A stretch of DNA of 64,000 nucleotides from Ignavibacteriales bacterium (GCA_015709675.1 CP054182.1:1219448-1283447); one strand, 5' to 3'. Positions 20,626-60,111 are shown, counted from the first letter of the stretch. A program made the numbers and translations. Notes: a model not told the origin generated them from the letters alone.

Positions 20626-21707
20626 TTGACTACGAAAATCTGGCGAAACTGAACCGCCCCTTCTTTGATGAGATGAAACAGAGCTTTAACGACACTCTTG
20701 AAGGGGGATGGTATATCCTGGGTGGGCGAGTAAAAAAATTTGAAGAGGAATATGCTGCCTTCCACGGCATGAAACACTGCATCGGGGTGAACTCCGGACT
20801 TGATGCCATGGTGCTTGCTCTTAAGGCATTCGGCTTTCCGGAGGGTTCGGAAGTGATTGTTCCTTCCAACACCTATATAGCAACCATACTCGCGGTGATG
20901 CAGGCGGGGCTGAAGCCGGTAATGGCTGAGCCGGACATCCGCACATATAATATATCTCCTGCGGAAATTGAAAAGAAGATAACGAAGAAAACCGCGGCAG
21001 TGCTTCCGGTGCATCTTTACGGCAAGTCATGTGATATGAAGTCCATCCTTGAACTCAAGGAAAAATATGGGTTTAAACTGGTTGAAGACTGCGCTCAGAG
21101 CCATGACGCAAAGCAGTATGGCAGACTGACGGGTACCTTTGGCGAGTACGGCGCATTTAGTTTTTATCCGACAAAGAATCTCGGAGCTATTGGGGACTCA
21201 GGCGCTATTCTGACCAATGATGATGATCTTGCTCTTGCAGTCCGCCGCCTGCGCAACTATGGCAGCGATGTGAAGTATTATAATGAGGTGCAGGGCTATA
21301 ACAGCCGTCTTGATGATGTTCAGGCGGGATTGCTCTCCGTCAAACTTAAGCATCTGAAAGAGATCACCGCGCATAAGCAGAAGCTGGCAGATCTCTACCA
21401 TCATCATCTTAGTGATGCATTTATCAAACCGGTGCGGGAAGAAGGTTATGAGGATGTGTTTCATATATATAACATCCGCCATCCGGAGCGGGACCGGCTG
21501 AAGCAGTATCTGCTTGAGAGAGGCATAAAGACAGAAATCCATTATCCGGTAGCGCCCCATCATCAGAAAGCGATGAAGGGAGTCTTTGAAGGAAGCTATC
21601 CCATATCGGAAGAGATACATGCAACCACGCTTAGTCTGCCGGTATCCTTCTGCCATACGGAAGAAGAGATCATGCAGGTGATTGAAGCATTAAACAAGTT
21701 CATATGA
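20622..21707 (+). CDS. DegT/DnrJ/EryC1/StrS sugar aminotransferase (FdtB-like)
   Basis: 361 residues, PLP-dependent fold type I. The N-terminus has the family start LNRPFFDEMKQSFNDTLEGGWYILG. GVNSGLDAMVLAL binds the cofactor phosphate, VEDCAQSHDA has the pyridine-binding Asp, and FSFYPTKNLGAIGDSGAI carries the Schiff-base Lys. The ATG overlaps the ketoisomerase stop (ATGA), so they are translationally coupled. It should transaminate the 3-keto sugar nucleotide to a 3-amino sugar. Confidence 0.9.
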   Translation: MIDYENLAKLNRPFFDEMKQSFNDTLEGGWYILGGRVKKFEEEYAAFHGMKHCIGVNSGLDAMVLALKAFGFPEGSEVIVPSNTYIATILAVMQAGLKPVMAEPDIRTYNISPAEIEKKITKKTAAVLPVHLYGKSCDMKSILELKEKYGFKLVEDCAQSHDAKQYGRLTGTFGEYGAFSFYPTKNLGAIGDSGAILTNDDDLALAVRRLRNYGSDVKYYNEVQGYNSRLDDVQAGLLSVKLKHLKEITAHKQKLADLYHHHLSDAFIKPVREEGYEDVFHIYNIRHPERDRLKQYLLERGIKTEIHYPVAPHHQKAMKGVFEGSYPISEEIHATTLSLPVSFCHTEEEIMQVIEALNKFI

Positions 21708-21911
21708 ATTATGAGTTATGAATTATGAAGTAGGAATTGATTACGTGTTCTCAACTTTTAACTTTTCACTCTTAACTTTTAACTGAATTGATGGCACGCG
21801 GATTTTACGGATGCAAGCAGCGCGGATTTATGCGGATCGGAATTTAATTATCCATTATCCATTATCAATTATCAATTATTCTTTTACTAATTACTAACTA
21901 CTAATTACTAA
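21708..21911. repeat. Intergenic repeat mosaic upstream of hemW
   Basis: About 200 nt made mostly of repeated words: GAATTATGAGTTATGAATTATGAAG, a GCGCGGATTTATGCGGATCGG-type unit, CCATTATCCATTATCAATTATC, and finally ACTAATTACTAACTACTAATTAC. The last run ends directly at the hemW start codon. No gene or terminator was seen. Confidence 0.6.
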
Positions 21912-23039
21912 TTGAAGACCGCCGGTCTGTATGTCCACGTTCCTTTCTGCGACCACAAATGTGTCTATTGTGATTTTTATTCAATTATCACAACGGACAA
22001 TGTATCTTCCTATCCGCAGGCGCTGTTTAAGGAAATTGAACATTACGCGGAGCAGTTTGCTGAGTCACATGATTTTGTGACGATCTACTTCGGCGGGGGA
22101 ACTCCCTCGCTGATGGAGCCGGAGTATCTGGAATCCATCATTAATAAGCTGCATAAACATTTCCGCATTTCGGCTGACGCGGAGGTGACGATGGAGACGA
22201 ACCCCGGTACGGTTTCTAAAGAAAAGCTGATTGCGTTCCGCAAGGCGGGGATTAACCGGGTGAGCATAGGCATACAGTCGTTTCATGAAGATGAGCTGAA
22301 GTTCATGACGCGCATACACAGCTCTGAACAGGCACAGAAAACAGTTCGTGAGGCGGCTGAAGCAGGATTCGCCAATATCAGTGCTGATCTGATCTTTAAT
22401 CTCCCCGGGCAGACAAAGCTGAAATGGAAGGAAAATCTGGATACACTGTTCACTCTTCCGGTTTCTCATCTTTCTGCATACAGTCTGATACTTGAGCGGG
22501 GCACCATACTTAATAAATTAGTGCTCGATAAAAAAGTTACGCTTAATGATGATGATCATGATGCTGACCTGTATGAATACACGATTGATTATATTACAGG
22601 TAAAGGATTCAATCAGTATGAAGTTTCTAACTTCGCTCTGCCGGGATATGAGTGTATTCACAATAAACTTTATTGGGAGTATGATGACTATCTCGGACTG
22701 GGAACCTCAGCGCATTCTTTTATGAACGACAAGAGGTGGTGGAATATCTCCAGTTTAAAGCTGTATCTGGATGCGGTGCGTGAACAGGGGCATCCGCGTG
22801 CGGGCTCTGAAGTACCGGATCGTCAGATGCAGATTACCGAGTATATCATGCTTGCACTGCGCGCAGGCGGACTTGATATATCAGCCTTCATCAGCCGTTT
22901 TGGCGGGACGGAGTATGAGATCCGCCGGCCTGAGCTCGACCTGATGCAAAAAGAAGGATTCACCATTCTTTCGGCAGGGAAAATAAAACTCACACCGAAA
23001 GGATACGCGATGTGCGATGAACTGCTGACTAAATTATGA
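21912..23039 (+). CDS. hemW: HemW-like radical SAM protein
   Basis: 375 residues, normal for HemW. The iron-sulfur motif is CDHKCVYC (CxxxCxxC) after YVHVPF, with FGGGTPSLM and GIQSFHEDELKFMTRIH later, and a HemN_C-like C-terminal domain. HemW is a haem chaperone related to oxygen-independent coproporphyrinogen oxidase (HemN); the single Cys spacing and length favour HemW. The start is TTG at 21912: an in-frame TAA immediately precedes it and no ATG occurs before the iron-sulfur motif. There is no recognisable ribosome site because an AT-rich repeat abuts the start. Confidence 0.88.
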   Translation: MKTAGLYVHVPFCDHKCVYCDFYSIITTDNVSSYPQALFKEIEHYAEQFAESHDFVTIYFGGGTPSLMEPEYLESIINKLHKHFRISADAEVTMETNPGTVSKEKLIAFRKAGINRVSIGIQSFHEDELKFMTRIHSSEQAQKTVREAAEAGFANISADLIFNLPGQTKLKWKENLDTLFTLPVSHLSAYSLILERGTILNKLVLDKKVTLNDDDHDADLYEYTIDYITGKGFNQYEVSNFALPGYECIHNKLYWEYDDYLGLGTSAHSFMNDKRWWNISSLKLYLDAVREQGHPRAGSEVPDRQMQITEYIMLALRAGGLDISAFISRFGGTEYEIRRPELDLMQKEGFTILSAGKIKLTPKGYAMCDELLTKL

Positions 23040-23228
23040 ATTATGAATTGTGAATTGTGAATGGTGAATTGTGAAGTATGAAGTATGAATGTGAATGTGA
23101 ATGTGAATGTGAATGGTGAATTGGTTTTATTTCCTTTAACAGTTCGCGCAAAGATGCAAAAAAATTGTACATTATTCATTGTTCATTGATTACTAATTAC
23201 TAACTCCTAATTACTAATTAAAAAAGTT
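23040..23228. repeat. Intergenic simple-sequence repeats
   Basis: From 23040 the sequence is GAATTATGAATTGTGAATTG-like, turning into tandem 6-bp GAATGT units near 23087-23112. The right end (23165-23222) is ATTCATTGTTCATTG and ACTAATTACTAACTCCTAAT. No gene is visible; a minus-strand open frame here only translates the repeats. Confidence 0.6.
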
Positions 23229-26144: not shown

Positions 26145-26685
26145 GTCAGAGATTCCATATAATCATACATACAAAAGTACATATAATTATATTTATAAGC
26201 AATGTTTTTGCAGGATTTTAGCTAAAATCTTTCAGGATGGAAAATCGGATGAAATAGAATTTTATCCTCATCCGGCAAATTCTAGTCTGATTTAAGAATG
26301 TAATCCAGAATATTAGCCGATTTATTGTAATTTCTTGCATGTGCCAGTTGTTTAGAAGTTTGGAGATTCTGGATTTCTACAATTACATCATTATTGCCTG
26401 ATTTGAATGCTTTTGTTCGCAATCCATCCGTACAGACACGCTGCGGCGTGTCTCTACATGGCTGAATTTATGAGATATCGGAATGGTTTTGTATTTGTCG
26501 GGACAGGTTGTGATCTGTCCTGATGAAAAAATGGCTGGTTCAATAATAATCTCACCACTTCATGGTTGGTTCAATATTATGTTTTCTATTATTCCGTACA
26601 GACACGCCGCGGCGTGTCTCTACAAAACAGGGGTCAGCAGGGAATTAGATTTGTTTCAAGGTTTCTGTACATTGTAAATTGTACA
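26145..26685. other. Gene-free region with dispersed palindromic repeats
   Basis: About 540 nt with no coding region I can support. It contains AGACACGC-TGCG-GCGTGTCT (26434-26453), GGACAGG..CTGTCC (26501-26520), the perfect palindrome at 26600-26619, and TGTACATTGTAAATTGTACA near 26668. It separates the divergent-looking toxin locus from the end of the VWA protein gene. Confidence 0.6.
26600..26619. repeat. 20-bp palindrome AGACACGCCGCGGCGTGTCT
   Basis: Perfect palindrome flanked by CCGTAC on the left and CTAC on the right. A one-base-different copy with the same flanks lies at 26434-26453, showing a short interspersed repeat family. Confidence 0.78.
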
Positions 26686-28788
26686 TTATTCATTATCTAT
26701 CGTCAATTCTTTTTTGCTGACTCGTGCAACTGCCATTTCGGCTATTGCGGTGAGAAGGGCCAGAAGGAGAAAAAACTTCCACAGTTCTGTGCCAAAACGT
26801 GCCTGATTGATTTCTTCCGTAATCGCAGCGCCGTAATCAAGTATAACCGGCTCGTTTGCTGCACCTGATTTTTTGAAATATTCTTTCAGCTGCTCATCTT
26901 CGGCAGATGTGGTTCTTGATTCGGCCGGATCATGATTCACGCTTTTCCGCTCAAGTACTTCGCTGCCGCTCAGAAGATCATAGACACCGGTACGTCCGGT
27001 CGAGCGAAAGGTGAAGAGTCCGGATTGTATCTGATCGTCTGATATATACTCGTCATCCCCGGATGGAAGGCTTAGTTTAAGCTGATCTTTTTTAGCGGAT
27101 GGAACGGCAAAGCGGAGCGCTTCACCGGCCATCAGGGATGAGTCCTTCTGCCCCGTGCCTGAGAGATAATACACTGATCGGTAGAGCATGGGCACAAATA
27201 TCCCTTTGAGCGGAAGATTGCTGTATTCAAGCGAGGGGGGGATGGTAAAACAGAGTATCCTGCCGTTCCCGCTTCTGTGTTCAGAAAGTGCAGCGGTTCC
27301 GTCAGCGAGGGTTATGACGGATTTTCCTCTTCCTCCGGGGAAAAACTGGAGGTAGCTGTATATATCAGGACTGGCGGCTTTTTCCTTCCCCTTCTCAAAT
27401 ATTCCCGTGAAGAGAGGATGATTCAGCTCAGTCTTGTCAAAGTAAAAAGGCCGCGCGGTATTGCCGGGACTTCCGGCAAGCACTCCCGGCTGCGGCAGTC
27501 CGAGTGAAAGCAGAAAACTTCTGTATATATCCGGCTTTACCCGGGCTGAAGGAAAAAGCAGAATTCCTCCTTTGCCTGTTTCCAGATATTTTTTGAATGG
27601 CTCGGAGTTAACAGCGGCTGCACCGGTCACCAGGACGATGGCATTATAGGCGGAAAGATCAGTTCCCGATGCTGAGGAAGAGGATCTGACTGTGAGGGTA
27701 AACTTTTCTGTGCCGAATGCTGCCTGCAGAGCAGGCTTCAGGAATTCGATATCTGAGGCGGTGTCATGCAAAAGCAGCGCGTTTAGCTGACGCGGTATAT
27801 AGAATGACGCATAGCGGAGATTATCACCGGTAATATCATCCTCCTCAAGTCCTGCGGTCACGGTTACATGTCCGGTTACGGTAAGGGGGATATCAAAATC
27901 AACCGGAAGCGCCGCTCCCGGGCCCAGGGTTACGCTTTTCTGTGCCGCGCGTTCTCCGTTAATATATACGGAGATGATGCAGTCACTGCTTTTGTCAGAT
28001 GAATGGTTTGCGGCCGTTACGGTTACGCTTATGGTTTTACCCGGTTCAAGAATCTCAGAGTTGACCCGCAGATCGTCAATGCCGGCGTTATAGATACCCT
28101 CCTTTTTCACCGGAATAAGATAGGTATGCACCCGCTCGCCGAGAACTGAGCTCAGGTCGGTTGCGTCCCCGGCTGATGGAAAACCACCCTCCTGAAAATC
28201 TGAAAAGATAAATATCTCCCGGTTATAGTTCAGTGATTGTTCAATAAGGGGAACCGCTTTAAGCAACGCATCCCCGGTTTTCCCTTTTGCCGCACTGATC
28301 TCAAGATCACGTATCTTCTTTTTAACTTCGGTCAGGTTTTTTGTGAGCTGTATTTCCGGTATGTTGTCTGCTGTAGTAATCACGGCAACCTCATCCCCCT
28401 CCTGCAGAGTGTTCACGAGCGCAAGGGCTGAGGATTTTGCTTTATTGAACAGGGAGCCGTCCTTATCTATTACATCCATACTGAAGGAGTTGTCAATAAT
28501 GAGGATGGCTGTGGTTTTGGCGGAAGAAGTGATGCCGGCAACCGAGACTCCTTTAAGTGCCGGGCGTGAAAAAGCAGTAACCAGAAACAGTATAAGAAGA
28601 ACGCGCAGCAGCAGAAGAATCCACTGCTTCAGTTTGATTTTTCTGATCTGATTTTTCTGCAGTTCCTTAAGAAAGCGGAGCGTACTGAACTCAACCCGCT
28701 GAAGCTTGCGCAGATTGAGTAAGTGGATAATAACGGGGATCCCCGCAGCCAAAAGCCCGAATAAAAAAGCCGGATTTAAAAAAGTCAT
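26686..28788 (-). CDS. BatA-like membrane protein with VWA domain
   Basis: 700 residues. The N-terminus is the BatA-type double-membrane domain: LNPAFLFGLLAAGIPVIIHLLNLRKLQRVEFSTLRFL, with a second helix LLLLRVLLILFLVTAFSRPAL. Residues about 90-250 form a von Willebrand A domain with MIDAS-like residues in LIIDNSFSMD. A long beta-rich middle follows, and a C-terminal helix (ELWKFFLLLALLTAIAEMAV) anchors the end. Such proteins accompany MoxR ATPases in aerotolerance loci; no moxR is seen in this window. The function is inferred to be envelope stress or complex assembly. Confidence 0.82.
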   Translation of the reverse strand: MTFLNPAFLFGLLAAGIPVIIHLLNLRKLQRVEFSTLRFLKELQKNQIRKIKLKQWILLLLRVLLILFLVTAFSRPALKGVSVAGITSSAKTTAILIIDNSFSMDVIDKDGSLFNKAKSSALALVNTLQEGDEVAVITTADNIPEIQLTKNLTEVKKKIRDLEISAAKGKTGDALLKAVPLIEQSLNYNREIFIFSDFQEGGFPSAGDATDLSSVLGERVHTYLIPVKKEGIYNAGIDDLRVNSEILEPGKTISVTVTAANHSSDKSSDCIISVYINGERAAQKSVTLGPGAALPVDFDIPLTVTGHVTVTAGLEEDDITGDNLRYASFYIPRQLNALLLHDTASDIEFLKPALQAAFGTEKFTLTVRSSSSASGTDLSAYNAIVLVTGAAAVNSEPFKKYLETGKGGILLFPSARVKPDIYRSFLLSLGLPQPGVLAGSPGNTARPFYFDKTELNHPLFTGIFEKGKEKAASPDIYSYLQFFPGGRGKSVITLADGTAALSEHRSGNGRILCFTIPPSLEYSNLPLKGIFVPMLYRSVYYLSGTGQKDSSLMAGEALRFAVPSAKKDQLKLSLPSGDDEYISDDQIQSGLFTFRSTGRTGVYDLLSGSEVLERKSVNHDPAESRTTSAEDEQLKEYFKKSGAANEPVILDYGAAITEEINQARFGTELWKFFLLLALLTAIAEMAVARVSKKELTIDNE

Positions 28789-37748: not shown

Positions 37749-38531
37749 TCAGTCATCTTTCCTTCTGTAGTCATCATCAAACTCATCATCGTCAAAATCC
37801 TCTTCGTCATATTCATCTAACGGCAGATCCTCTTCAAGATCAGGATCTATATCCTCATCCTCGCTCTTTACCGGTTTCTTTTTTGTGCGGAGCGCTGAGG
37901 CCTCTTCCTCGGCTTTGGTGAGCGCTTCAATAAAAGTCTCCACCGGCTGCGCACCGCTTACGGCAAACTTATTATTAAAGATGAAGAAAGGAACGGCACG
38001 GACTCCGGTTCCCTTTGCCGCGCTTTCCGCATAACGGAGCTCTTCGGAGAAAGTCTCGTCATCCAGACAGGCCTTGGCTTCTGAGCGGTCGAGCCCGGCA
38101 GTTTCGGCAACATCGAGGATGTTTTCCTCCTTGCTCAGGTCAATACCGTTAACGAAGAATGCATCAAAAAATTTCACCTGAAGCTCGTTCCCCAGGTTTT
38201 CCATCTGTGCCAGAGCCAGAAGTTTGTGCAGCCGGAAGGTATTTGGCTGGACTTTCTGAGCGGTCAGATTGAAGTGTATTCCGGCTTTTTCAGCCATTTC
38301 AACCACCACTTTTTCGGCTTTTTCAACCTTTTCGGGACTGCCGAATTTGGCGTTCATGTGCTGGATGCGGTCAACGCCGGCTTCATCCAGATCGGGATTT
38401 AACTGAAAAGGATGCCAGCGGATGACAGGGTCAAGACCGGTTTTTTTAATTGCGCGTTCAAGATGGGTCTTGCCGATATAACAGAATGGGCAGACCACAT
38501 CGGATATAATGTCTATTTCTACTTGTGCCAT
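37749..38531 (-). CDS. FrnE-like DsbA-family oxidoreductase with acidic tail
   Basis: 260 residues. The thioredoxin-fold active site is DVVCPFCYIGKTHLERA, and cis-Pro in GTGVRAVPFFIFNNKFAVSGAQP is typical of FrnE/DsbA-like proteins. The core ends near residue 215; the last 45 residues are almost all Asp and Glu (for example DEYDEEDFDDDEFDDDYRR), an unusual low-complexity tail. There is no signal peptide, so it is cytoplasmic. It is convergent with the GGGP synthase gene, 14 nt away. Confidence 0.87.
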   Translation of the reverse strand: MAQVEIDIISDVVCPFCYIGKTHLERAIKKTGLDPVIRWHPFQLNPDLDEAGVDRIQHMNAKFGSPEKVEKAEKVVVEMAEKAGIHFNLTAQKVQPNTFRLHKLLALAQMENLGNELQVKFFDAFFVNGIDLSKEENILDVAETAGLDRSEAKACLDDETFSEELRYAESAAKGTGVRAVPFFIFNNKFAVSGAQPVETFIEALTKAEEEASALRTKKKPVKSEDEDIDPDLEEDLPLDEYDEEDFDDDEFDDDYRRKDD

Positions 38532-38706: not shown

Positions 38707-39867
38707 CTATTTCAGATACATAATCTTTTGTGAGTAGATACCAGATTCTGTTATCAGCGAAGCAATATATATGCCGGAGGCCGGAAACCCGCTCACCATG
38801 ACCGTGTGATAACCGGCCGGGTATTTCCCTTTAGCCAGTGTGCGTATTTCACTCCCTTCTATGGAATAGATTTTCAGAGAAATACTCATTTCATCCGGCA
38901 ACCGGAATGAAAGGGTTGTCTCAGGATTAAAAGGGTTGGGATAGTTCTGATAAAATTCGATTTCTTTTGGAAATTCCACCGATGATTCTTCTTTTGTGCC
39001 TGTTAAAACTGAATCTCCGTTTTCATCAATTATCAGTCTGCTTACATAATACTTAAACACACTGTCATAATTTGCAATAAAGATCATCTTTTTGCGATCG
39101 GGAGTAAGATAGGGGAAATATTCTGATCTTCCGGCATATTCTCCAATTTGATATAAACTGTCTGACATCCTGCTTAAATTCAATACTTTGAGTTCCTTTG
39201 CAGCAGTTATTGTATCAGATATATATTGTAAATAGATATCGTTATTTATCATAGAGCCGGTAGCCAGATATGCCCGTAATCCATTCTTATACAGCCATAT
39301 TCCATCAAACCACCAAAGTCCTTTCCCGGGCTTTGGATACTCATAATTGGGAACCATTTACCATTGACCATTCTTGCAAGCCGGGTTCGCCCTCTCCACA
39401 ACAAACATTGTGCTGTCGTTCAGAAAATTGATACAGTACCAGTAGGGGTTAACATTGAAACCGTTGTCATAAAAAACCTCAGGAGTGCCCCACACGCCTG
39501 TTGAATCATTAAACCGGCATTTATACATCTTGAAGCTGCGTAAATCGGTAAAATACAGGGTTTTTTTGTCAGGGGTTAAAACAGGATAGTCTGGTGAATA
39601 GTTGGGAATTCCATAGAGAGGACTCAGCATCTTCGGCCCCTGCCAGTTACCGGCTGAATCCTTGTAGATAAAATAAACATACTGAAATCCGTAAAGCAGA
39701 GTATCACCGGTGGAAGTAAGACTAAATGGGCTGTATGGTAATTGCGCCAAACTATCCGGGAGCAGTTTTTCCGGTTTGCTCCACACCTCCGGGGCCAGAG
39801 GGTAAGTGAACTGTGCAAACAGGGAAATACCTGAGAGCAGAAATGTGAATACTATTTTAGACAGCAT
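38707..39867 (-). pseudogene. Array copy 6: T9SS-sorted PD40-like protein, frameshifted
   Basis: The upstream part (39867-39358, 169 codons) ends in NDSTMFVVERANPACKNGQW and a stop, where intact copies read VVGEGRTRLARMVNGKW. The downstream part (39357-38707) continues as VPNYEYPKPGKG and finishes with a full sorting domain. Compared with other copies, three single bases are missing within about 90 bp: one C in GCCCCT, one C in CTCCCA and one T in AATTTG. Together they restore the frame, so only about 20 codons are scrambled, but these include a stop. All three lie in homopolymers, so assembly error is a real alternative. Confidence 0.85.
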
Positions 39868-39891
39868 TGGTATTTGCCACTTTCGTTACGG

Positions 39892-39957
39892 CTAACCGCG
39901 AACATAAGGAACAGTAAAGAAAAAGAATACTATGGCGGTTAGAACTATGCGCAACAT
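39892..39957 (-). CDS. 21-residue leader ORF before array copy 6
   Basis: Reads MLRIVLTAIV, then FFFFTVPYVRG, stop. The Shine-Dalgarno AGGAGG overlaps the stop codon of copy 5 (AAATAGGAGGAAAAATG). The stop lies 24 nt before the ATG of copy 6, which itself has only a weak ribosome site, so coupled re-initiation is plausible. The peptide is hydrophobic and resembles a truncated signal peptide. Its translation is not proven. Confidence 0.45.
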   Translation of the reverse strand: MLRIVLTAIVFFFFTVPYVRG

Positions 39958-39965
39958 TTTTCCTC

Positions 39966-41129
39966 CTATTTTATGTGAAGTATCTTTTGTGAGTAGATGC
40001 CTGATACTGTTATAAGTGATGCAATATATATGCCTGACGCCGGAAACCCGCTCACCCTGACCGTGTGATATCCAGCCGGGTATTTCCCTTTAGCCAGTGT
40101 GCGTATTTCACTCCCGTCTATGGAATAGATTTTCAGAGAAATACTCATTTCATCCGGCAACCGGAAGGAAAGGGTTGTCTCAGGGTTAAAAGGATTTGGG
40201 TAGTTCTGATAAAATTCGATTTCTTTTGGAAATTCCACCGATGATTCTTCTTTTGTGCCTGTTAAAACCGAATCTCCGTTTTCATCAATTATCAGTCTGC
40301 TTACATAATACTTAAACACACTGTCATAATTTGCAATAAAAACCATCTTTTTCCTGTCGGCACTCAGATAGGGGAAATATTCTGATCTCCCTGCATATTC
40401 CCCAATTTGATATAAACTGTCTGACATTGTACTTAAATTTAATATTGTCGTCATCAGGATTGAAGTATCTGAATCATTCATATACTTTAACAATATATCA
40501 AAGTTTTGAGTTTGCCCTAATGAGTAGTATGCACGAAAACCAGTATGATTTAACCAAATACCATTACTCCAGAATAAACCCTGTCCGGGCTTTGGATACT
40601 CATAATTTGGGAACCATTTACCATTGACCATTCTTGCAAGCCGGGTTCGCCCCTCTCCCACAACAAACATTGTGCTGTCGTTCAGAAAATTGATACAGTA
40701 CCAGCGTGGGTTTACATTAAAGCCATTATCATAAAAAACTTCAGGAGTGCCCCACACGCCTGTTGAATCATTAAACCGGCATTTATACATTCTAAAACTC
40801 CGTAAATCGGTGAAATACAGGGTCTTTTTGTCAGGGGTTAAAACAGGATAGTCTGGTGAATAGTTGGGGATTCCATAGAGAGGACTCAGTTTCTTCGGCC
40901 CCTGCCAGTTTCCGGCTGAATCCTTGTAGATAAAATAAACATACTGAAATCCGTAAAGCAGAGTATCACCTGTGGCAGTAAGACTAAATGGGCTGTATGG
41001 TAATTGCGCCAAACTATCCGGGAGAAGTTTTTCCGGTTTGCTCCACACCTCCGGAGCCAAGGGGTAAGTGAACTGAGCAAACAGGGAAATACCTGAGAGC
41101 AGAAATGTGAATACTATTTTAGACAGCAT
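39966..41129 (-). CDS. Array copy 5: T9SS-sorted PD40-like protein
   Basis: 387 residues. Signal peptide MLSKIVFTFLLSGISLFAQ, then PD40-like strands (NYSPDYPVLTPDKKTLYFTD and EYFPYLSADRKKMVFIANYD) and a C-terminal type-A sorting domain with FYQNYPNPFNPETTLSFRLP ending QKILHIK. It should be exported through the Sec and T9SS pathways to the cell surface. Its N-terminal segment is the PYSPFSLTATG version. Its central segment (QGLFWSNGIWLNHTGFRAYY to LMTTILNLSTM) is unique in the array. Confidence 0.85.
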   Translation of the reverse strand: MLSKIVFTFLLSGISLFAQFTYPLAPEVWSKPEKLLPDSLAQLPYSPFSLTATGDTLLYGFQYVYFIYKDSAGNWQGPKKLSPLYGIPNYSPDYPVLTPDKKTLYFTDLRSFRMYKCRFNDSTGVWGTPEVFYDNGFNVNPRWYCINFLNDSTMFVVGEGRTRLARMVNGKWFPNYEYPKPGQGLFWSNGIWLNHTGFRAYYSLGQTQNFDILLKYMNDSDTSILMTTILNLSTMSDSLYQIGEYAGRSEYFPYLSADRKKMVFIANYDSVFKYYVSRLIIDENGDSVLTGTKEESSVEFPKEIEFYQNYPNPFNPETTLSFRLPDEMSISLKIYSIDGSEIRTLAKGKYPAGYHTVRVSGFPASGIYIASLITVSGIYSQKILHIK

Positions 41130-41153
41130 TGGTATTTGCCACTTTCGTTACGG

Positions 41154-41219
41154 CTAACCGTGAACATAAGGAACGGTAAAGAAAAAGAATACTATGGCTG
41201 TTAGAACTATGCGCAACAT
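41154..41219 (-). CDS. 21-residue leader ORF before array copy 5
   Basis: Reads MLRIVLTAIV, then FFFFTVPYVHG. It differs from the copy-6 leader by two silent changes and one Arg-to-His change. AGGAGG overlaps the stop of copy 4. Same 24-nt spacing to the next ATG. Confidence 0.45.
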   Translation of the reverse strand: MLRIVLTAIVFFFFTVPYVHG

Positions 41220-41227
41220 TTTTCCTC

Positions 41228-42391
41228 CTATTTTATGTGAAGTATCTTTTGTGCGTAGATACCTGATTCTGTTATCAGTGAAGCAATATATATGCCGGAG
41301 GCCGGAAACCCGCTCACCCTGACCGTATGATAACCGGCCGGGTATCTCCCATTAGCCAGTGAGCTTATTTCTCTTCCATCTACTGAGTAGATCTTCAGAG
41401 AGATACTCATTTCATTTGGCAACCGGAAGGACAGTGTTGTCTCAGGATTAAAAGGGTTAGGGTAGTTTTGATAAAATTTGATTTCTTTTGGATATTCCAC
41501 CGATGATTCTTCTTTTGTGCCTGTTAAAACTGAATCTCCGTTTTCATCAATTATCAGTCTGCTTACATAATACTTAAACACACTGTCATAATTTGCAATA
41601 AAGATCATCTTTTTGCGATCGGGAGTAAGATAGGGGAAATATTCTGATCTCCCTGCATATTCCCCAATTTGATATAGACTGTCTGACATCCTGCTTAAAT
41701 TCAATACTTTGAGTTCCTTTGCAGCAGTAATTGTATCAGATATATATTGTAAATAGATATCGTTATTTATCATAGAGCCGGTAGCCAGATATGCCCGTAA
41801 TCCATTCTTATACAGCCATATTCCATCAAACCACCAAAGTCCTTTCCCGGGCTTTGGATACTCATAATTTGGGAACCATTTACCATTGACCATTCTTGCG
41901 AGGCGGGTTCGTTCTTCTCCGACTACAAACATTGTGCTGTCGTTCAGAAAATTGATACAGTACCAGCGTGGGTTTACATTAAAGCCATTATCATAAAAAA
42001 CTTCAGGAGTGCCCCACACGCCTGTTGAATCATTAAACCGGCATTTATACATCTTGAAGCTGCGTAAATCGGTGAAATACAGGGTCTTTTTGTCAGGGGT
42101 TAATACCGGGTAATCTGGTGAATAAGCAGGAATGCCATAGAGAGGACTCAGCTTCTTCGGCCCCTGCCAGTTACCGGCTGAATCCTTGTAGATAAAATAA
42201 ACATACTGATATCCATAAAGAAGGGTATCTCCTGTTGTTGTCAGCGTAAAACGATTAAATCGTATATGCGCCATACTATCCGGGAGCAGTTTTTCCGGTT
42301 TGCTCCACACCTCCGGAGCCAGGGGGTAAGTGAACTGAGCAAACAGGGAAATACCTGAGAGCAGAAATGTGAATACTATTTTGGACAGCAT
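41228..42391 (-). CDS. Array copy 4: T9SS-sorted PD40-like protein
   Basis: 387 residues, same signal peptide, PD40-like strands and sorting domain as its neighbours (ending AQKILHIK). The N-terminal segment is the second version (AHIRFNRFTLTTTGDTLLYGYQY). The central segment is the GLWWFDGIWLYKNGLRAYLA version shared with copies 1 and 6. This mixed combination points to recombination among copies. The ligand or function is unknown; PD40 repeats usually form beta-propeller blades. Confidence 0.85.
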   Translation of the reverse strand: MLSKIVFTFLLSGISLFAQFTYPLAPEVWSKPEKLLPDSMAHIRFNRFTLTTTGDTLLYGYQYVYFIYKDSAGNWQGPKKLSPLYGIPAYSPDYPVLTPDKKTLYFTDLRSFKMYKCRFNDSTGVWGTPEVFYDNGFNVNPRWYCINFLNDSTMFVVGEERTRLARMVNGKWFPNYEYPKPGKGLWWFDGIWLYKNGLRAYLATGSMINNDIYLQYISDTITAAKELKVLNLSRMSDSLYQIGEYAGRSEYFPYLTPDRKKMIFIANYDSVFKYYVSRLIIDENGDSVLTGTKEESSVEYPKEIKFYQNYPNPFNPETTLSFRLPNEMSISLKIYSVDGREISSLANGRYPAGYHTVRVSGFPASGIYIASLITESGIYAQKILHIK

Positions 42392-42415
42392 TGGTATTTG
42401 CCACTTTCGTTACGG

Positions 42416-42481
42416 CTAACCGCGAACATGAGGAACAGTAAAGAAAAAGAAAACAAGGATTGTTAGAATTATGCGCAACAC
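42416..42481 (-). CDS. Leader ORF before array copy 4 (GTG start)
   Basis: Reads (V/M)LRIILTILV then FFFFTVPHVRG, 21 residues. It starts with GTG and has a weaker site (TAGGTGGAAAA) than the other leaders. Several amino-acid changes occur, but length, hydrophobicity and stop position are kept. Confidence 0.38.
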   Translation of the reverse strand: MLRIILTILVFFFFTVPHVRG

Positions 42482-42489
42482 TTTTCCAC

Positions 42490-43659
42490 CTATTTTATGT
42501 GAAGTATTTTTTGTGAGTAGATACCAGATTCTGTTATCAGCGAAGCAATATATATGCCGGAGGCCGGAAACCCGCTCACCCTGACCGTATGATAACCGGC
42601 CGGGTATCTCCCTTTAGCCAGTGTGTTTATTATACTCCCGTCTATGGAATAGATTTTCAGAGAAATACTCATCTCATCCGGCAACCGGAATGACAGGGTT
42701 GTCTCAGGATTAAAAGGGTTGGGGTAATTTTGATAAAATTCGATTTCTTTTGGATAGTCCTCTGATGATTCTTCTTTTGTGCCTGTTAAAACTGAATCTC
42801 CGTTTTCATCAATTATCAGTCTGCTTATATAATACTTGGATACACTATCATAATTTGCAATAAAGACCATCTTTTTACGGTCGGGGGTAAGATAGGGGAA
42901 ACTTTCTTCTCTTCCTTTGTAATGACCGGATAAAAACAGACTGTCCGATTCTGAGCTGATGTTGAGTATTTTCGTTTCGGCAGATGTGGTAACGGTATCA
43001 TAAATATATCTAATGTATAGTTGCCTGTTAAAAGTAGTCGTTCCGCTTGAGCTAAAGTATGCCCTCATGCCTGATTTAAACAACCAAGAACCATGTCCCC
43101 AGGCAAGTCCAAATCCGGGATTTGGATACTCATAATTTGGAAACCATTTACCATTGACCATTCTTGCGAGGCGGGTTCGCCCCTCTCCCACAACAAACAT
43201 TGTGCTGTCGTTCAGAAAATTGATACAGTACCAGTAGGGGTTAACATTGAAACCGTTGTCATAAAAAACCTCAGGAGCGCCCCATACCCCCGTTGTATCA
43301 TTAAACCGGCATTTATACATTCTAAAACTCCGTAAATCTGTGAAATACAGGGTTTTTTTGTCAGGGGTTAATACCGGGTAATCTGGTGAATAAGCAGGAA
43401 TGCCATAGAGAGGACTCAGCTTCTTCGGCCCCTGCCAGTTACCGGCTGAATCCTTGTAGATAAAATAAACATACTGATATCCATAAAGAAGGGTATCTCC
43501 TGTTGTTGTCAGCGTAAAACGATTAAATCGTAAATGCGCCAAACTATCCGGGAGCAGTTTCTCCGGTTTGCTCCACACCTCCGGGGCCAGGGGGTAAGTG
43601 AACTGAGCAAACAGGGAAATACCTGAGAGCAACAATGTGAATACTATTTTAGACAGCAT
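42490..43659 (-). CDS. Array copy 3: T9SS-sorted PD40-like protein
   Basis: 389 residues. Signal peptide MLSKIVFTLLLSGISLFAQ. The N-terminal segment is the RFNRFTLTTTG version shared with copy 4. The central segment is the third version (FGLAWGHGSWLFKSGMRAYFSSSGTTTFNRQLYIRY..., here given in part) shared with copy 2 and two codons longer. The sorting domain ends SQKILHIK. Residues just before the sorting domain (SSEDYPKEIEFYQ) also vary between copies. Confidence 0.85.
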   Translation of the reverse strand: MLSKIVFTLLLSGISLFAQFTYPLAPEVWSKPEKLLPDSLAHLRFNRFTLTTTGDTLLYGYQYVYFIYKDSAGNWQGPKKLSPLYGIPAYSPDYPVLTPDKKTLYFTDLRSFRMYKCRFNDTTGVWGAPEVFYDNGFNVNPYWYCINFLNDSTMFVVGEGRTRLARMVNGKWFPNYEYPNPGFGLAWGHGSWLFKSGMRAYFSSSGTTTFNRQLYIRYIYDTVTTSAETKILNISSESDSLFLSGHYKGREESFPYLTPDRKKMVFIANYDSVSKYYISRLIIDENGDSVLTGTKEESSEDYPKEIEFYQNYPNPFNPETTLSFRLPDEMSISLKIYSIDGSIINTLAKGRYPAGYHTVRVSGFPASGIYIASLITESGIYSQKILHIK

Positions 43660-43683
43660 TGGTATTTGCCACTTTCGTTACGG

Positions 43684-43749
43684 CTAATCGTGAACATAAG
43701 GAACGGTAAAGAAAAAGAAATCCACGATTGTCAAAACTATATGTAACAT
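43684..43749 (-). CDS. Leader ORF before array copy 3
   Basis: Reads MLHIVLTIVD, then FFFFTVPYVHD, 21 residues, ATG preceded by AGGAGG overlapping the stop of copy 2. It is the most diverged leader (a charged Asp enters the hydrophobic part) yet the frame and length stay intact. Confidence 0.4.
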   Translation of the reverse strand: MLHIVLTIVDFFFFTVPYVHD

Positions 43750-43757
43750 TTTTCCTC

Positions 43758-44927
43758 CTATTTTATGTGAAGTATCTTTTGTGAATAGATACCAGATTCT
43801 GTTATCAGCGAAGCAATATATATGCCGGAGGCCGGAAACCCGCTCACCCTGACCGTATGATAACCGGCCGGGTATCTCCCTTTGGCCAGTGTGCGTATTT
43901 CACTCCCGTCTATGGAATAGATTTTCAGAGAAATACTCATTTCATTTGGCAACCGGAAGGACAGTGTTGTCTCAGGATTAAAAGGGTTAGGGTAGTTTTG
44001 ATAAAATTTGATTTCTTTTGGATATTCCGCCGATGATTCTTCTTTTGTGCCTGTTAAAACCGAATCTCCGTTTTCATCAATTATCAGTCTGCTTACATAA
44101 TACTTAAACACACTGTCATAATTTGCAATAAAGATCATCTTTTTTCGATCGGGAGTAAGATAGGGGAAAGTTTCCTCCCTTCCTTTATACTGCCCGGATA
44201 AAAACAGACTGTCCGATTCTGTGCTGATGTTGAGTATTTTTGTTTCCGCGGATGTACTAACGGTATCATAAATATATCTAATATATAGCTGCCTGTTAAA
44301 AGTATTCGATCCGCTTGAGCTAAAGTATGCTCGCATTCCTGTATTAAATAGCCATGAACCATGAATCCAAGACAGTCCAAATCCGGGATTTGGATACTCA
44401 TAATTTGGAAACCATTTACCATTGACCATTCTTGCAAGCCGGGTTCGTTCCTCCCCGACAACAAACATGGTGCTGTCGTTCAGAAAATTGATACAGTACC
44501 AGTAGGGGTTAACATTGAAACCGTTGTCATAAAAAACCTCAGGAGTGCCCCACACACCTGTTGAATCATTAAACCGGCATTTATACATCTTGAAGCTGCG
44601 TAAATCGGTAAAATACAGGGTTTTTTTGTCAGGGGTTAAAACAGGATAGTCTGGTGAATAGTTGGGAATTCCATAGAGAGGACTCAGCATCTTCGGCCCC
44701 TGCCAGTTACCGGCTGAATCCTTGTAGATAAAATAAACATACTGAAATCCGTAAAGCAGAGTATCACCGGTGGAAGTAAGACTAAATGGGCTGTATGGTA
44801 ATTGCGCCAAACTATCCGGGAGCAGTTTTTCCGGTTTGCTCCACACCTCCGGGGCCAGAGGGTAAGTGAACTGTGCAAACAGGGAAATACCTGAGAGCAG
44901 AAATGTGAATACTATTTTAGACAGCAT
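43758..44927 (-). CDS. Array copy 2: T9SS-sorted PD40-like protein
   Basis: 389 residues. The N-terminal segment is the PYSPFSLTSTG version, nearly identical in DNA to copy 6. The central segment is the FGLSWIHGSWLFNTGMRAYF version shared with copy 3. The C-terminal sorting domain (YQNYPNPFNPETTLSFRLP, ending SQKILHIK) is intact. The combination of copy-6-like and copy-3-like parts is another sign of mosaic exchange. Confidence 0.85.
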   Translation of the reverse strand: MLSKIVFTFLLSGISLFAQFTYPLAPEVWSKPEKLLPDSLAQLPYSPFSLTSTGDTLLYGFQYVYFIYKDSAGNWQGPKMLSPLYGIPNYSPDYPVLTPDKKTLYFTDLRSFKMYKCRFNDSTGVWGTPEVFYDNGFNVNPYWYCINFLNDSTMFVVGEERTRLARMVNGKWFPNYEYPNPGFGLSWIHGSWLFNTGMRAYFSSSGSNTFNRQLYIRYIYDTVSTSAETKILNISTESDSLFLSGQYKGREETFPYLTPDRKKMIFIANYDSVFKYYVSRLIIDENGDSVLTGTKEESSAEYPKEIKFYQNYPNPFNPETTLSFRLPNEMSISLKIYSIDGSEIRTLAKGRYPAGYHTVRVSGFPASGIYIASLITESGIYSQKILHIK

Positions 44928-44951
44928 TGGTATTTGCCACTTTCGTTACGG

Positions 44952-45017
44952 CTAACCGCGAACATAAGGAACAGTAAAGAAAAAGAATACTATGGCGGTT
45001 AGAACTATGCGCAACAT
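44952..45017 (-). CDS. Leader ORF before array copy 2, in frame with copy 1 run-on
   Basis: Same 21-residue peptide as the copy-6 leader (MLRIVLTAIV then FFFFTVPYVRG). Because copy 1 has a shifted 3' end, its open frame passes straight through this leader and ends at the same stop, so here the leader may be made alone or as a C-terminal extension. Confidence 0.4.
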   Translation of the reverse strand: MLRIVLTAIVFFFFTVPYVRG

Positions 45018-46187
45018 TTTTCCTCCTATTTTATGTGAAGTATCTTTTGTGAGTAGATGCCTGATCTTTGTTATAAGTGATGCAATATATATGCCTGACG
45101 CCGGAAACCCGCTCACCCTGACCGTGTGATATCCAGCCGGGTATTTCCCTTTAGCCAGTGTGCGTATTTCACTCCCGTCTATGGAATAGATTTTCAGAGA
45201 AATACTCATTTCATCCGGCAACCGGAAGGAAAGGGTTGTCTCAGGGTTAAAAGGATTTGGGTAGTTCTGATAAAATTCGATTTCTTTTGGAAATTCCACC
45301 GATGATTCTTCTTTTGTGCCTGTTAAAACCGAATCTCCGTTTTCATCAATTATCAGTCTGCTTACATAATACTTAAACACACTGTCATAATTTGCAATAA
45401 AGATCATCTTTTTGCGATCGGGAGTAAGATAGGGGAAATATTCTGATCTTCCGGCATATTCCCCAATTTGATATAAACTGTCTGACATCCTGCTTAAATT
45501 CAATACTTTGAGTTCCTTTGCAGCAGTTATTGTATCAGATATATATTGTAAATAGATATCGTTATTTATCATAGAGCCGGTAGCCAGATATGCCCGTAAT
45601 CCATTCTTATACAGCCATATTCCATCAAACCACCAAAGTCCTTTCCCGGGCTTTGGATACTCATAATTTGGGAACCATTTACCATTGACCATTCTTGCAA
45701 GCCGGGTTCGCCCCTCTCCCACAACAAACATTGTGCTGTCGTTCAGAAAATTGATACAGTACCAGTAGGGGTTAACATTGAAACCGTTGTCATAAAAAAC
45801 CTCAGGAGTGCCCCACACACCTGTTGAATCATTAAACCGGCATTTATACATCTTGAAGCTGCGTAAATCGGTAAAATACAGGGTTTTTTTGTCAGGGGTT
45901 AAAACAGGATAGTCTGGTGAATAGTTGGGAATTCCATAGAGAGGACTCAGCATCTTCGGCCCCTGCCAGTTACCGGCTGAATCCTTGTAGATAAAATAAA
46001 CATACTGAAATCCGTAAAGCAGAGTATCACCTGTGGAAGTAAGACTAAACGGGTTGTATGGTAATTGCGCCAAACTATCCGGGAGCAGTTTCTCCGGTTT
46101 GCTCCACACCTCCGGAGCCAGGGGGTAAGTGAACTGAGCAAACAGGGAAATACCTGAGAGCAGAAATGTGAATACTATTTTAGACAC
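44952..46187 (-). CDS. Array copy 1: T9SS-sorted PD40-like protein with altered C-terminus
   Basis: 411 residues, first gene of the array. It starts GTG-TCT (MSKIVFTF) where other copies have ATG-CTG-TCT, and has its own AGGAGG site 10 nt upstream with no leader ORF. The body matches copy 6 (GLWWFDGIWLYKNG centre). Near the end a small indel (GATCTTTG where copy 5 has GATACTG) shifts the frame. The final strand GIYSQKILHIK is replaced by KIRHLLTKDTSHKIGGK and the hydrophobic leader peptide. The loss may impair T9SS recognition. Sequencing error is possible. Confidence 0.82.
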   Translation of the reverse strand: MSKIVFTFLLSGISLFAQFTYPLAPEVWSKPEKLLPDSLAQLPYNPFSLTSTGDTLLYGFQYVYFIYKDSAGNWQGPKMLSPLYGIPNYSPDYPVLTPDKKTLYFTDLRSFKMYKCRFNDSTGVWGTPEVFYDNGFNVNPYWYCINFLNDSTMFVVGEGRTRLARMVNGKWFPNYEYPKPGKGLWWFDGIWLYKNGLRAYLATGSMINNDIYLQYISDTITAAKELKVLNLSRMSDSLYQIGEYAGRSEYFPYLTPDRKKMIFIANYDSVFKYYVSRLIIDENGDSVLTGTKEESSVEFPKEIEFYQNYPNPFNPETTLSFRLPDEMSISLKIYSIDGSEIRTLAKGKYPAGYHTVRVSGFPASGIYIASLITKIRHLLTKDTSHKIGGKMLRIVLTAIVFFFFTVPYVRG

Positions 46188-46405
46188 GATTAGTATTCCT
46201 CCTAATCCTGAAGAATTATTATAATCAGAGAACCCAATTTTCTGCGTTTTAGAGCACGATAAGTCCAGAAAAACAGGGAGAGTACCTGAAATTAAGAGGC
46301 AGTACCTGAAAACCGCCTGCTGCCCATTAACTATGGAAGAAAATTAATAAACGTTTTGCAAACTTCCAAGCAAGGGCCGCGGACTAGACGGATTGTACCA
46401 ATTTT
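46188..46405. promoter_or_regulatory. Leader region of the paralogue array
   Basis: About 215 nt upstream of array copy 1. It contains the AGGAGG ribosome site (46198-46203 on the minus strand) and two spaced AGTACCTGAAA words near 46282 and 46313. I cannot assign a promoter with confidence; it is the only non-repeat DNA between the array and the 22-bp repeats. Confidence 0.35.
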
Positions 46406-46647
46406 GAACACGAATTGCACTAATTCCGAACACGAATTGCACTAATTCCGAACACGAATTGCACTAATTCCGAACACGAATTGCACTAATTCCGAACACG
46501 AATTGCACTAATTACGAACACGAATTGCACTAATTACGAACACGAATTGCACTAATTACGAACACGAATTGCACTAATTACGAACACGAATTGCACTAAT
46601 TCCGAACACGAATTACACTAATTAAAAACACGAATTGTACTAAATGT
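46406..46647. repeat. Eleven 22-bp direct repeats upstream of the array
   Basis: Units share the core AACACGAATTGCACTAATT, followed by CCG or ACG. Units 1-4 and 9 end TTCC and units 5-8 end TTAC; unit 10 and 11 are degenerate. The period is exactly 22 bp, about two helical turns. Two inverted, diverged units (ATTCGTGTTAATTAGTGTT) follow at about 46657-46700. There are no unique spacers, so this is not CRISPR. Confidence 0.93.
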
Positions 46648-46733
46648 TCAAATATAATTCGTGTTAATTAGTGTTCTCAAATTCGTGTTAATTAGTGTTA
46701 AATTTGTCGCGTGACGGCTGCTGTCTTCATTAC

Positions 46734-47111
46734 CTATAATACTATTCTCTTGTATCTCAAACTAGCTTCTCCGAAATTTACCAATATTCCAAGCTTATTG
46801 CCTGATGCCGCAAGATAGTTAAGTGTCTGTGCAATATGCTGATCGGTCAAAGCAGATATTGCTTTTACCTCAAGAATAATTTTATCCATTACTACAAAAT
46901 CAGCAAAGTAACTGTGAGCGAGTAATTGATCTTTGTAGTAAATCTTATACTCTCTTTCTCTCTTAAATTCTATTCCGGCAGTGTAAAACTCATGTTGCAA
47001 TGCATCTTTATATACCGCCTCAAGGAATCCGCATCCTAAACTCCTGTGCACCTCAAAGCATTTCCCGATTATCAGATAGGATTCTTCTTTGTATATAAGA
47101 TTGTCGGTCAT
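46734..47111 (-). CDS. GxxExxY protein
   Basis: 125 residues with the signature GCGFLEAVYKDALQHEF plus FKREREYKIYYKD and a PD-(D/E)xK-like pattern ADFVVMDKIILEVKAIS. The family name comes from its motif and its function is not established; a nuclease-like fold is suggested by the ExK pattern. These genes often stand alone next to repeats, as here beside the 22-bp direct repeats. Confidence 0.85.
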   Translation of the reverse strand: MTDNLIYKEESYLIIGKCFEVHRSLGCGFLEAVYKDALQHEFYTAGIEFKREREYKIYYKDQLLAHSYFADFVVMDKIILEVKAISALTDQHIAQTLNYLAASGNKLGILVNFGEASLRYKRIVL

Positions 47112-58380: not shown

Positions 58381-60111
58381 TTATTTCATCAGAACCATCT
58401 TTTTGGTCATGACAACAGCATTATCTGCTGTCAGACGGTAGAGATATATTCCGCTCGGAACAGTAAGACCGGTAATGGATTTTGCATCCCACTGGGCGCT
58501 GTAGCTTCCCGCAGACATCTGCTGATTTACCAGAACGTTTACTAACTGACCGTCAACAGAGTAAATTTCCAGACGGACTTTAGCATCCTTTGCAACCGCA
58601 AACTTAATAGTAGTTGTCGGGTTAAACGGATTTGGATAGTTCTGTGCCAGAGTAAATGTTTCCGGGGTGGTATTTGATTCCTGTTTTATGCCAACGATAT
58701 TATACATAATCTGATAATATCTCCAGAGAGTATCAGCAAGCGCGATATCGGTAGCTTCTGCCCAGTTGGTTAAGCTTGCATCGGTAATACCAAAGTTCGG
58801 ACCAAACCCGCGGGTACCCTGACCGTTACGGTGGCAGGCAGCTGCGCAGGTATTAATCATACCGTTGGTAGAAGTTGCCAGATCAAGAGTAGCACTCGGA
58901 CGAATAACGGTAAAAGCATGGCTTGAAATGTCATATGCTTTTGCAGTGACCGCGGTGTGGGTCATATGGCAGTTTGCGCACTGTGACATTGCCTGCAGGT
59001 GCTTTGAGTGATTGTTTCTTCCGTTGGTTTCGGCGGCTTTATCAGCATGGCACTTTACGCAGCCAACACCCGGAGTCATGGAGTTAAAGTCTTCTTTCAG
59101 CTGATGAGGGAATGCGGTTTCCTGATGAGGATCATGGCAGGTAACGCAGGTCATTCCTGAACTTTCACTGAAGTGAGCTGAAAATTTGTAATCCTGAGAC
59201 TGCTGGTGATGCTGTTTTGAGGATTTTCCGTCAGGCCAGAGACCCGGAGCTTCAATGATGTAATTGGCGAGAGTTTCGCCGGGCTGGAATACTTTTCCGG
59301 TTGCTTCGTCATAAGGATATTCATGAGTTCCGGCATTGCTCTTTCCTCTGAAGTGGCACTGAGCGCAGACTTCAAGTTTTCTGTCATAACTGAGGCCAGT
59401 AAGAGGGTTGGCATGTCCGCCGCCGGCAAATCCGGTTGTATGACCATGGCAGGATTCGCATCCAACAACAATATTCTTTACTGAATTGCTGTTTGCCCAT
59501 CCATAAACCCAGGAGGTATCACTTCCGTTTACTACTTTGTTAACGGTGTTGGTATTAGTGCCGGGAACAACGTGGCATCCTGCGCAATTTTTATCCCAGG
59601 ACTTTGTTCTGAAAGTATTGTCAATTGGTTTTAATGCACCAGTGGAGGTGAACCAGTTTTGCGGATTATAGCTAACCCATCCGCCTGATGAATTATCTTT
59701 ATATTTATTCAGGTTCCACTGAACCGGAGGCATATAATAGCTGTCGCCGATCTTAACCAGATAGCGCTGTTTCCAGCCGCCGCCATAAGTGAAAACAACC
59801 TGATACTCAACCATACTGCCGGAAGCAGGATTCAGCTGGATAAAATAATTAGATCCGTCAACGCGGAAGGTTACCGTTGCGTTTCCGTAGGAAGCACCCA
59901 TGGAAACGGTCTGGGTATAATTTCCCTTCATTGTTGTGGCTGAAGGGGGGAGATGAATCTGGCTATGGAGAGTTGCTTCCCAGCTTGAAAAACCGGGGAA
60001 ACTTCTCAGCGGGCCGCTGTGGCACATCTGGCAGTTTTCAACACCCTTGTAGTTCTGCGGAACCGCGAGGGAGGCAAAAACAAATACTAGCAACAGTATT
60101 TTGTGTAACAT
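58381..60111 (-). CDS. T9SS-sorted octahaem c-type cytochrome
   Basis: 576 residues. Signal peptide (MLHKILLLVFVFASLAVPQ). Haem-binding motifs: CQMCH (residue 27), then CAGCH, CESCH, CAQCH, CVTCH, CVKCH and CANCH between about 174 and 380, plus a CAAACH (CxxxCH) near 420, so eight haems are possible. The C-terminal 85 residues are a type-A sorting domain (LAQNYPNPFNPTTTIKFAVA, ending KKMVLMK). Cytochrome maturation takes place in the periplasm before T9SS export, so this is a candidate outer-surface electron carrier. No other redox gene is adjacent in the window. Confidence 0.9.
   Translation of the reverse strand: MLHKILLLVFVFASLAVPQNYKGVENCQMCHSGPLRSFPGFSSWEATLHSQIHLPPSATTMKGNYTQTVSMGASYGNATVTFRVDGSNYFIQLNPASGSMVEYQVVFTYGGGWKQRYLVKIGDSYYMPPVQWNLNKYKDNSSGGWVSYNPQNWFTSTGALKPIDNTFRTKSWDKNCAGCHVVPGTNTNTVNKVVNGSDTSWVYGWANSNSVKNIVVGCESCHGHTTGFAGGGHANPLTGLSYDRKLEVCAQCHFRGKSNAGTHEYPYDEATGKVFQPGETLANYIIEAPGLWPDGKSSKQHHQQSQDYKFSAHFSESSGMTCVTCHDPHQETAFPHQLKEDFNSMTPGVGCVKCHADKAAETNGRNNHSKHLQAMSQCANCHMTHTAVTAKAYDISSHAFTVIRPSATLDLATSTNGMINTCAAACHRNGQGTRGFGPNFGITDASLTNWAEATDIALADTLWRYYQIMYNIVGIKQESNTTPETFTLAQNYPNPFNPTTTIKFAVAKDAKVRLEIYSVDGQLVNVLVNQQMSAGSYSAQWDAKSITGLTVPSGIYLYRLTADNAVVMTKKMVLMK

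Follow-up and report, generated by a model that had tools for sequence, protein, structure and literature searches.

How does a free-living bacterium come to hold six alike genes for one secreted protein in a row, with a small set of alternative sequences shared out among them, and is such diversity of use to the cell? The question is raised by positions 38707-46187 of a 64-kb stretch of DNA (the window, meaning the whole stretch analysed) from a member of the Ignavibacteria that belongs to an uncultured environmental lineage. Exchange among the copies by recombination or gene conversion is strongly supported. The locus is probably a tandem family that expands, contracts and turns mosaic by ordinary homologous recombination, much like a "gene accordion", each copy being, now or formerly, a complete gene for a secreted protein. 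As to why the alternative versions persist, a neutral account is nearly as well supported as an adaptive one.

The array and its product

An earlier note made from the sequence had described six tandem genes here. The six copies lie head to tail on the minus strand at regular spacing, with a unit of 1262-1268 bp. They are named T1 to T6 in the order of transcription, which is also the copy order of that note (Table 1). The array is flanked by a DsbA-like gene (37749-38531) on one side and by a GxxExxY gene (46734-47111) on the other.

Table 1. Coordinates of the array and of features discussed in the text, counted from the first base of the window.
Feature	Position	Strand	Remarks
T1, first copy	44952-46187	-	N-block 1, centre A; GTG start; +1 frameshift
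T2, intact, 389 aa	43758-44927	-	N-block 1, centre C
T3, intact, 389 aa	42490-43659	-	N-block 2, centre C (divergent form)
T4, intact, 387 aa	41228-42391	-	N-block 2, centre A
T5, intact, 387 aa	39966-41129	-	N-block 1, centre B
T6, last copy	38707-39867	-	N-block 1, centre A; interrupted
Spacer T1/T2, 99 bp	44928-45026	-	start of spacer read through by frameshifted T1
Four further spacers	43660-43757, 42392-42489, 41130-41227, 39868-39965	-	
N-terminal variable block of T2, about aa 37-65	44733-44819	-	from alignment
Central variable block of T2, aa 181-252	44172-44387	-	from alignment
Central block, other copies	T1 45441-45650, T3 42904-43119, T4 41642-41851, T5 40380-40589, T6 39121-39330	-	same alignment
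509-nt exact tract (T1 3' end, spacer, T2 5' third)	44557-45065	-	identical to T5 3' end, spacer, T6 5' third, 39497-40005
Further 333 identical nt, upstream	45069-45401	-	identical to 40008-40340; break from the 509-nt tract is the T1 frameshift only
22-bp tandem repeat upstream of T1, 11.6 copies	46388-46643	.	unique in the genome; the sister species lacks it here

The earlier note called the genes near-identical. The six copies are indeed alike, but the damage to the first and the last had been missed. T1 has lost its ATG and would start at GTG, where the nearest relative among the genomes compared, the same-genus assembly G001 (Ignavibacteriaceae MAG SJ115, here the sister species), reads ATG GTG. 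Its +1 frameshift destroys the last residues of the sorting signal, and reading continues into the spacer. Within about 60 nt T6 lacks three single bases, all in homopolymers (net -3), which leads to an in-frame TAA; this copy is either a pseudogene or a sequencing error.

The spacers (about 99 bp) are mutually 84-100% alike, and a genome-wide search gave no second source of their sequence elsewhere in the host. Every spacer contains a 21-codon hydrophobic, signal-peptide-like ORF, MLRIVLTAIVFFFFTVPYVRG, downstream of a GGAGG or GGTGG motif, with a GTG start in the third spacer (before T4). The ORF is in the same frame as the next gene, but its stop comes before that gene; it may be a remnant or a leader peptide. 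Scanning for promoters and terminators gave hits no commoner than in shuffled sequence and was hence uninformative.

The protein opens with MLSKIVFTFLLSGISLFAQ, which by eye resembles a Sec signal peptide; a body of about 270 residues follows, and the C-terminus is a T9SS type A sorting tail. TIGR04183 was matched at 31.6-35.1 bits (cut-off 23) in T2, T4 and T5, all three copies tested, and the genome encodes a PorU sortase (972 bits, cut-off 420). Both results support the T9SS export proposed before, and the protein is probably exported and attached to the cell surface. PD40 matches were found in 20 of the 22 family members (best 1e-13), with about four propeller repeats per protein; T2, T4 and T5, each taken alone, fall below the PD40 cut-off. 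The family profile aligns with itself at shifted positions with 98% probability, indicating internal repeats, and its weak matches among solved structures are TolB and T9SS tails. The PD40, self-alignment and TolB matches together support the description of the protein as beta-propeller-like, although an AlphaFold2 model (from the array and the sister copy) reached a pLDDT of only 41 and was not usable. Elsewhere in the window, a gene at 58381-60111 combines multihaem cytochrome c motifs (Cytochrome_C7, CXXCH) with a sorting tail of T9SS type A, which suggests an exported cytochrome.

Variable blocks and exchange between copies

The N-terminal block exists as a PY(S/N)PF type (N-block 1) and an RFNRF type (N-block 2), the central block as versions A (WWFDGIWLYKNG), B (LFWSNGIWLNHTG) and C (GSWLF). 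Alignment confirmed every block assignment made earlier, including the pairings in T3 and T4, and all four of the combinations N1-A, N1-C, N2-A and N2-C are present. Of the three variable blocks said to assort independently, the independent assortment stood, but the mosaic is finer: at least five segments have differing trees, with breaks near alignment columns 330, 500, 790 and 930. Nor is the DNA between the blocks almost the same throughout, as had been stated; non-central DNA is 85-100% identical. Self-alignment of the family profile would place the N-terminal block within the first of the propeller-like repeats; the central block would correspond to the fourth together with the loop that follows.

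Could six paralogues simply have diverged without recombination, the blocks being fast-evolving parts of the gene? Conservation against a distant paralogue is likewise lowest in the centre (38-42%), as this reading would have it. The trees, however, speak against it. In AU tests the trees of the other segments were rejected in every segment, weakly in the shortest, D (p 0.003-0.03), and the whole-gene tree was rejected in segments A, B and E, although not in C (p 0.375) or D (0.06). Incompatible pairs of informative sites made up 49.8% of the total when the sister copy was included, as against at most 31.8% in 60 simulations run without recombination and with segment-specific rates. Incompatibility was also locally clustered (ratio 0.43), whereas the simulations gave at least 0.90, i.e. 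no clustering. PHI was 0.197, compared with 0.464 +/- 0.008 after permutation (p < 5e-4). Plain divergence is refuted by the AU tests and by the failure of the simulations to reach the observed incompatibility, and we give it practically no credence. The shuffling of copies by recombination, as the earlier note had proposed, is thus borne out by PHI, by AU tests that reject a single tree across segments, by the simulations and by the exact tracts.

The longest of these tracts link the two ends of the array: T1-spacer-T2 and T5-spacer-T6 have 842 identical bases of about 845. Other exact tracts between copies reach 299 nt. Such tracts show recent exchange and, since they span gene boundaries, indicate pairing of whole units (unequal crossing-over or long gene conversion) and not of gene-internal cassettes.

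This bears on a dedicated system of antigenic variation, in which one copy is expressed and the others are silent donors. Silent-cassette systems such as vlsE, pilE/pilS and msp2 have one expression site and truncated silent donors. The two interrupted copies, and an upstream region that is unique to T1, would be in keeping with such an arrangement. Against it, four genes are intact and full-length, there are no truncated cassettes, and exchange crosses gene boundaries. The first copy, which is nearest any promoter, is itself damaged, and no recombinase, invertase or reverse transcriptase was found among the neighbouring genes scanned. As each copy has its own putative signal peptide and its own sorting tail (the frameshifted end of T1 apart), there is no silent-cassette and expression-site arrangement; the anatomy, with four complete genes, led us to reject silent cassettes, and we judge antigenic variation of this kind to be very improbable. 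A diversity-generating retroelement was likewise rejected. Such elements make adenine-directed changes in a short variable repeat by means of a template repeat and a reverse transcriptase, whereas here the differences between variants involve every type of base and include a 6-nt indel, synonymous change is saturated, and the scan of neighbouring genes gave no reverse transcriptase.

Assembly is a further concern, as an array might be mimicked by long reads joined wrongly or by copies that stem from different strains. The homopolymer losses of T6 are typical of unpolished long-read repeats, the stretch of about 845 nt is nearly identical at two places, and assembly error could account for the damage to two of the six copies. 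The host genome, however, is a single contig of 4.21 Mb (98.4% complete, 0.1% contamination), and frameshifts are absent from the other neighbouring genes that have a sister-species counterpart, so that there is no sign of a genome-wide sequencing problem. Distinct block combinations among the six copies, a regular unit, and the recurrence of block versions in the independent SJ115 assembly also argue against an artefact, which we consider very improbable.

Homologous recombination within a tandem family would work as follows. Long identical stretches (5' end, spacer and CTD) would let copies pair out of register and exchange by unequal crossing-over and gene conversion, presumably of the RecA type. 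Two spots, one in repeat 1 and one in repeat 4 with its loop, would hold anciently diverged versions. These might survive exchange because their divergence prevents pairing: the flanks would be homogenised, and the versions would travel as modules. The sorting tail should bring the protein to the cell surface, and the four intact copies, if exported and displayed together, would present several propeller variants at once. The variable repeats may bind a ligand or partner, and their diversity may be of benefit. The array is known from the assembly of one strain; the frequent shuffling supposed in the earlier note may go on in the living population, and the variable blocks may, as it also proposed, be exposed at the surface.

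Age of the versions and selection on them

At the syntenic place, with flanking EamA and DsbA genes, the sister species carries a single intact gene, and a search of its genome (a fragmented assembly of 260 contigs) gave no further copies; array length may thus differ, with six copies as against one in that assembly. The single copy is a patchwork. One stretch is nearest to T3 (94%), its centre is nearest to T2 (93-98%; 99% amino-acid identity to centre C of T2), its C-terminal block is nearest to that of T4 (96%), which the two have in common, and its 3' DNA is T6-like. It might be what remains of an older array after contraction, or result from assembly collapse, or reflect later transfer of versions between the species; a collapsed or chimeric array could have given this single copy.

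Between centre versions A, B and C, dS is 1.0-2.7 (dS is saturated in the centre), and between the N-blocks it is about 0.5-0.7. Flanking orthologues of host and sister species differ by a dS of 0.37-0.99, and the centre versions are therefore older than the species split. The omega of the blocks is 0.1-0.3 (with dS saturated in the centre), which gives no direct indication of positive selection in them. The earlier suggestion that the array is a diversity reservoir is not borne out, given these omega values and complete genes that lack silent cassettes and an expression site.

Neutral concerted evolution may suffice: alike duplicates recombine, and the divergent blocks are relics of old paralogues, giving diversity without benefit. 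This agrees with an omega (about 0.1-0.3 in the centre) that points to purifying selection on every block, with the decay of the end copies and with a sister species that manages with one copy. Less easily accommodated are three centre versions that predate the species split and have not been homogenised away, and the keeping of one of them at near-complete amino-acid identity in both species. We regard the neutral account as a real possibility, if short of probable; it shares its recombination mechanism with the tandem-family explanation preferred here, and confidence in the one therefore overlaps with confidence in the other. That module versions of the propeller repeats of a T9SS surface protein, exchanged in a tandem array, are kept across species by balancing selection because they alter surface binding or recognition by phage or rivals is a proposal that we consider unlikely.

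Copies elsewhere are few. The host genome has one more paralogue, 55% identical (C1:3777455-3778540). In a sample of 391 genomes from the class, G000 alone had more than one match, and among 196 relatives only G100 did, with two, both partial fragments. Apart from these fragments, homologues in other genomes are distant single ones; G031 has a distant tandem pair, 66-73% alike. The homologue in G007 (L071, G007:C90:2-199) is 53-60% identical over the first about 65 residues and is cut off by the contig end, as expected if a repeat array had broken the assembly; hidden arrays are thus possible.

Other repeats were seen in the region. The 22-bp repeat upstream of T1 adjoins the GxxExxY/PDDEXK_3 gene, and the stretch holding both (46388-47111) is missing in the sister species, which has 81 bp there compared with about 745 bp here; it therefore looks like an insertion or deletion. 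The repeat is probably outside the array system. Short tandem arrays rich in A and T, nine in all, also occur in the window; their period is exactly 7 bp (TAATTAG, AATTGTG, CAATGTA and others), and their positions include 15486, 21703-21913, 23032-23220, 34827 and 35147. At a contig end of the sister assembly (L049 18160-18754) lie repeats about 211 bp long that are 88-91% alike, and short sequences related to them occur in the window near 26.4-26.6 kb (26377-26690).

Relation to known recombining arrays

The earlier note knew of no described system of this exact form. That claim falls, because esaG, lpl and csa1 of Staphylococcus aureus and tipC of streptococci are such arrays (PMC9484751, PMC7360770). 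The kind of array is already known; the novelty lies in the phylum, in export by the T9SS and in a product that is propeller-like.

The closest parallels are tandem arrays of non-identical paralogues. In esaG and tipC, immunity genes of the T7SS, conserved homology blocks alternate with variable regions, spacers are similar in length and sequence, segment trees disagree, and pseudogenes occur within arrays; expansion, loss and new mosaics arise by homologous recombination, mosaics through loss of the DNA between two copies (PMC9484751). Tandem paralogues, homologous spacers, conflicting segment trees and interrupted copies are found in the present array too, but its product is T9SS-exported and propeller-like, has no known toxin partner and belongs to another phylum. 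The "gene accordions" lpl and csa1 are tandem lipoprotein genes whose copy-number change has been linked to RecA (PMC7360770, PMC9484751), and their recombination tracts extend from the 3' part of one gene through the spacer into the 5' part of its neighbour (Tsuru et al. 2006, as cited in PMC9484751). Tracts of the same layout, in tandem paralogues that are probably surface-displayed, are shared with the array described here. The S. aureus genes, in contrast, are shorter, encode lipid-anchored proteins and belong to a pathogen, and copy-number change has been measured there, whereas here it is only inferred.

Two further systems resemble the array in part. Neisseria opa has several complete, expressible copies whose discrete variable regions are exchanged by recombination (PMC4534519), a likeness that extends to the present genes. 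These form a single tandem array, however, and the repeat tract responsible for phase switching in opa was not seen in them. In Porphyromonas gingivalis, block variants of the T9SS-exported protein Kgp form a mosaic unrelated to strain phylogeny (PMC5266723). Mosaic blocks in T9SS-exported proteins are a feature of both, but in Kgp the variation is allelic, between strains and at separate loci, with no six-copy tandem array.

Short-read assemblies may collapse such arrays into one patchwork gene. Pathogens and toxin-immunity genes have given the best-known examples of recombining tandem mosaic arrays, whose range is extended here to a T9SS-exported propeller protein of a free-living bacterium. 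If the old versions common to both species are kept by selection, the array would offer a handle on the forces behind surface diversity in a setting without an immune system.
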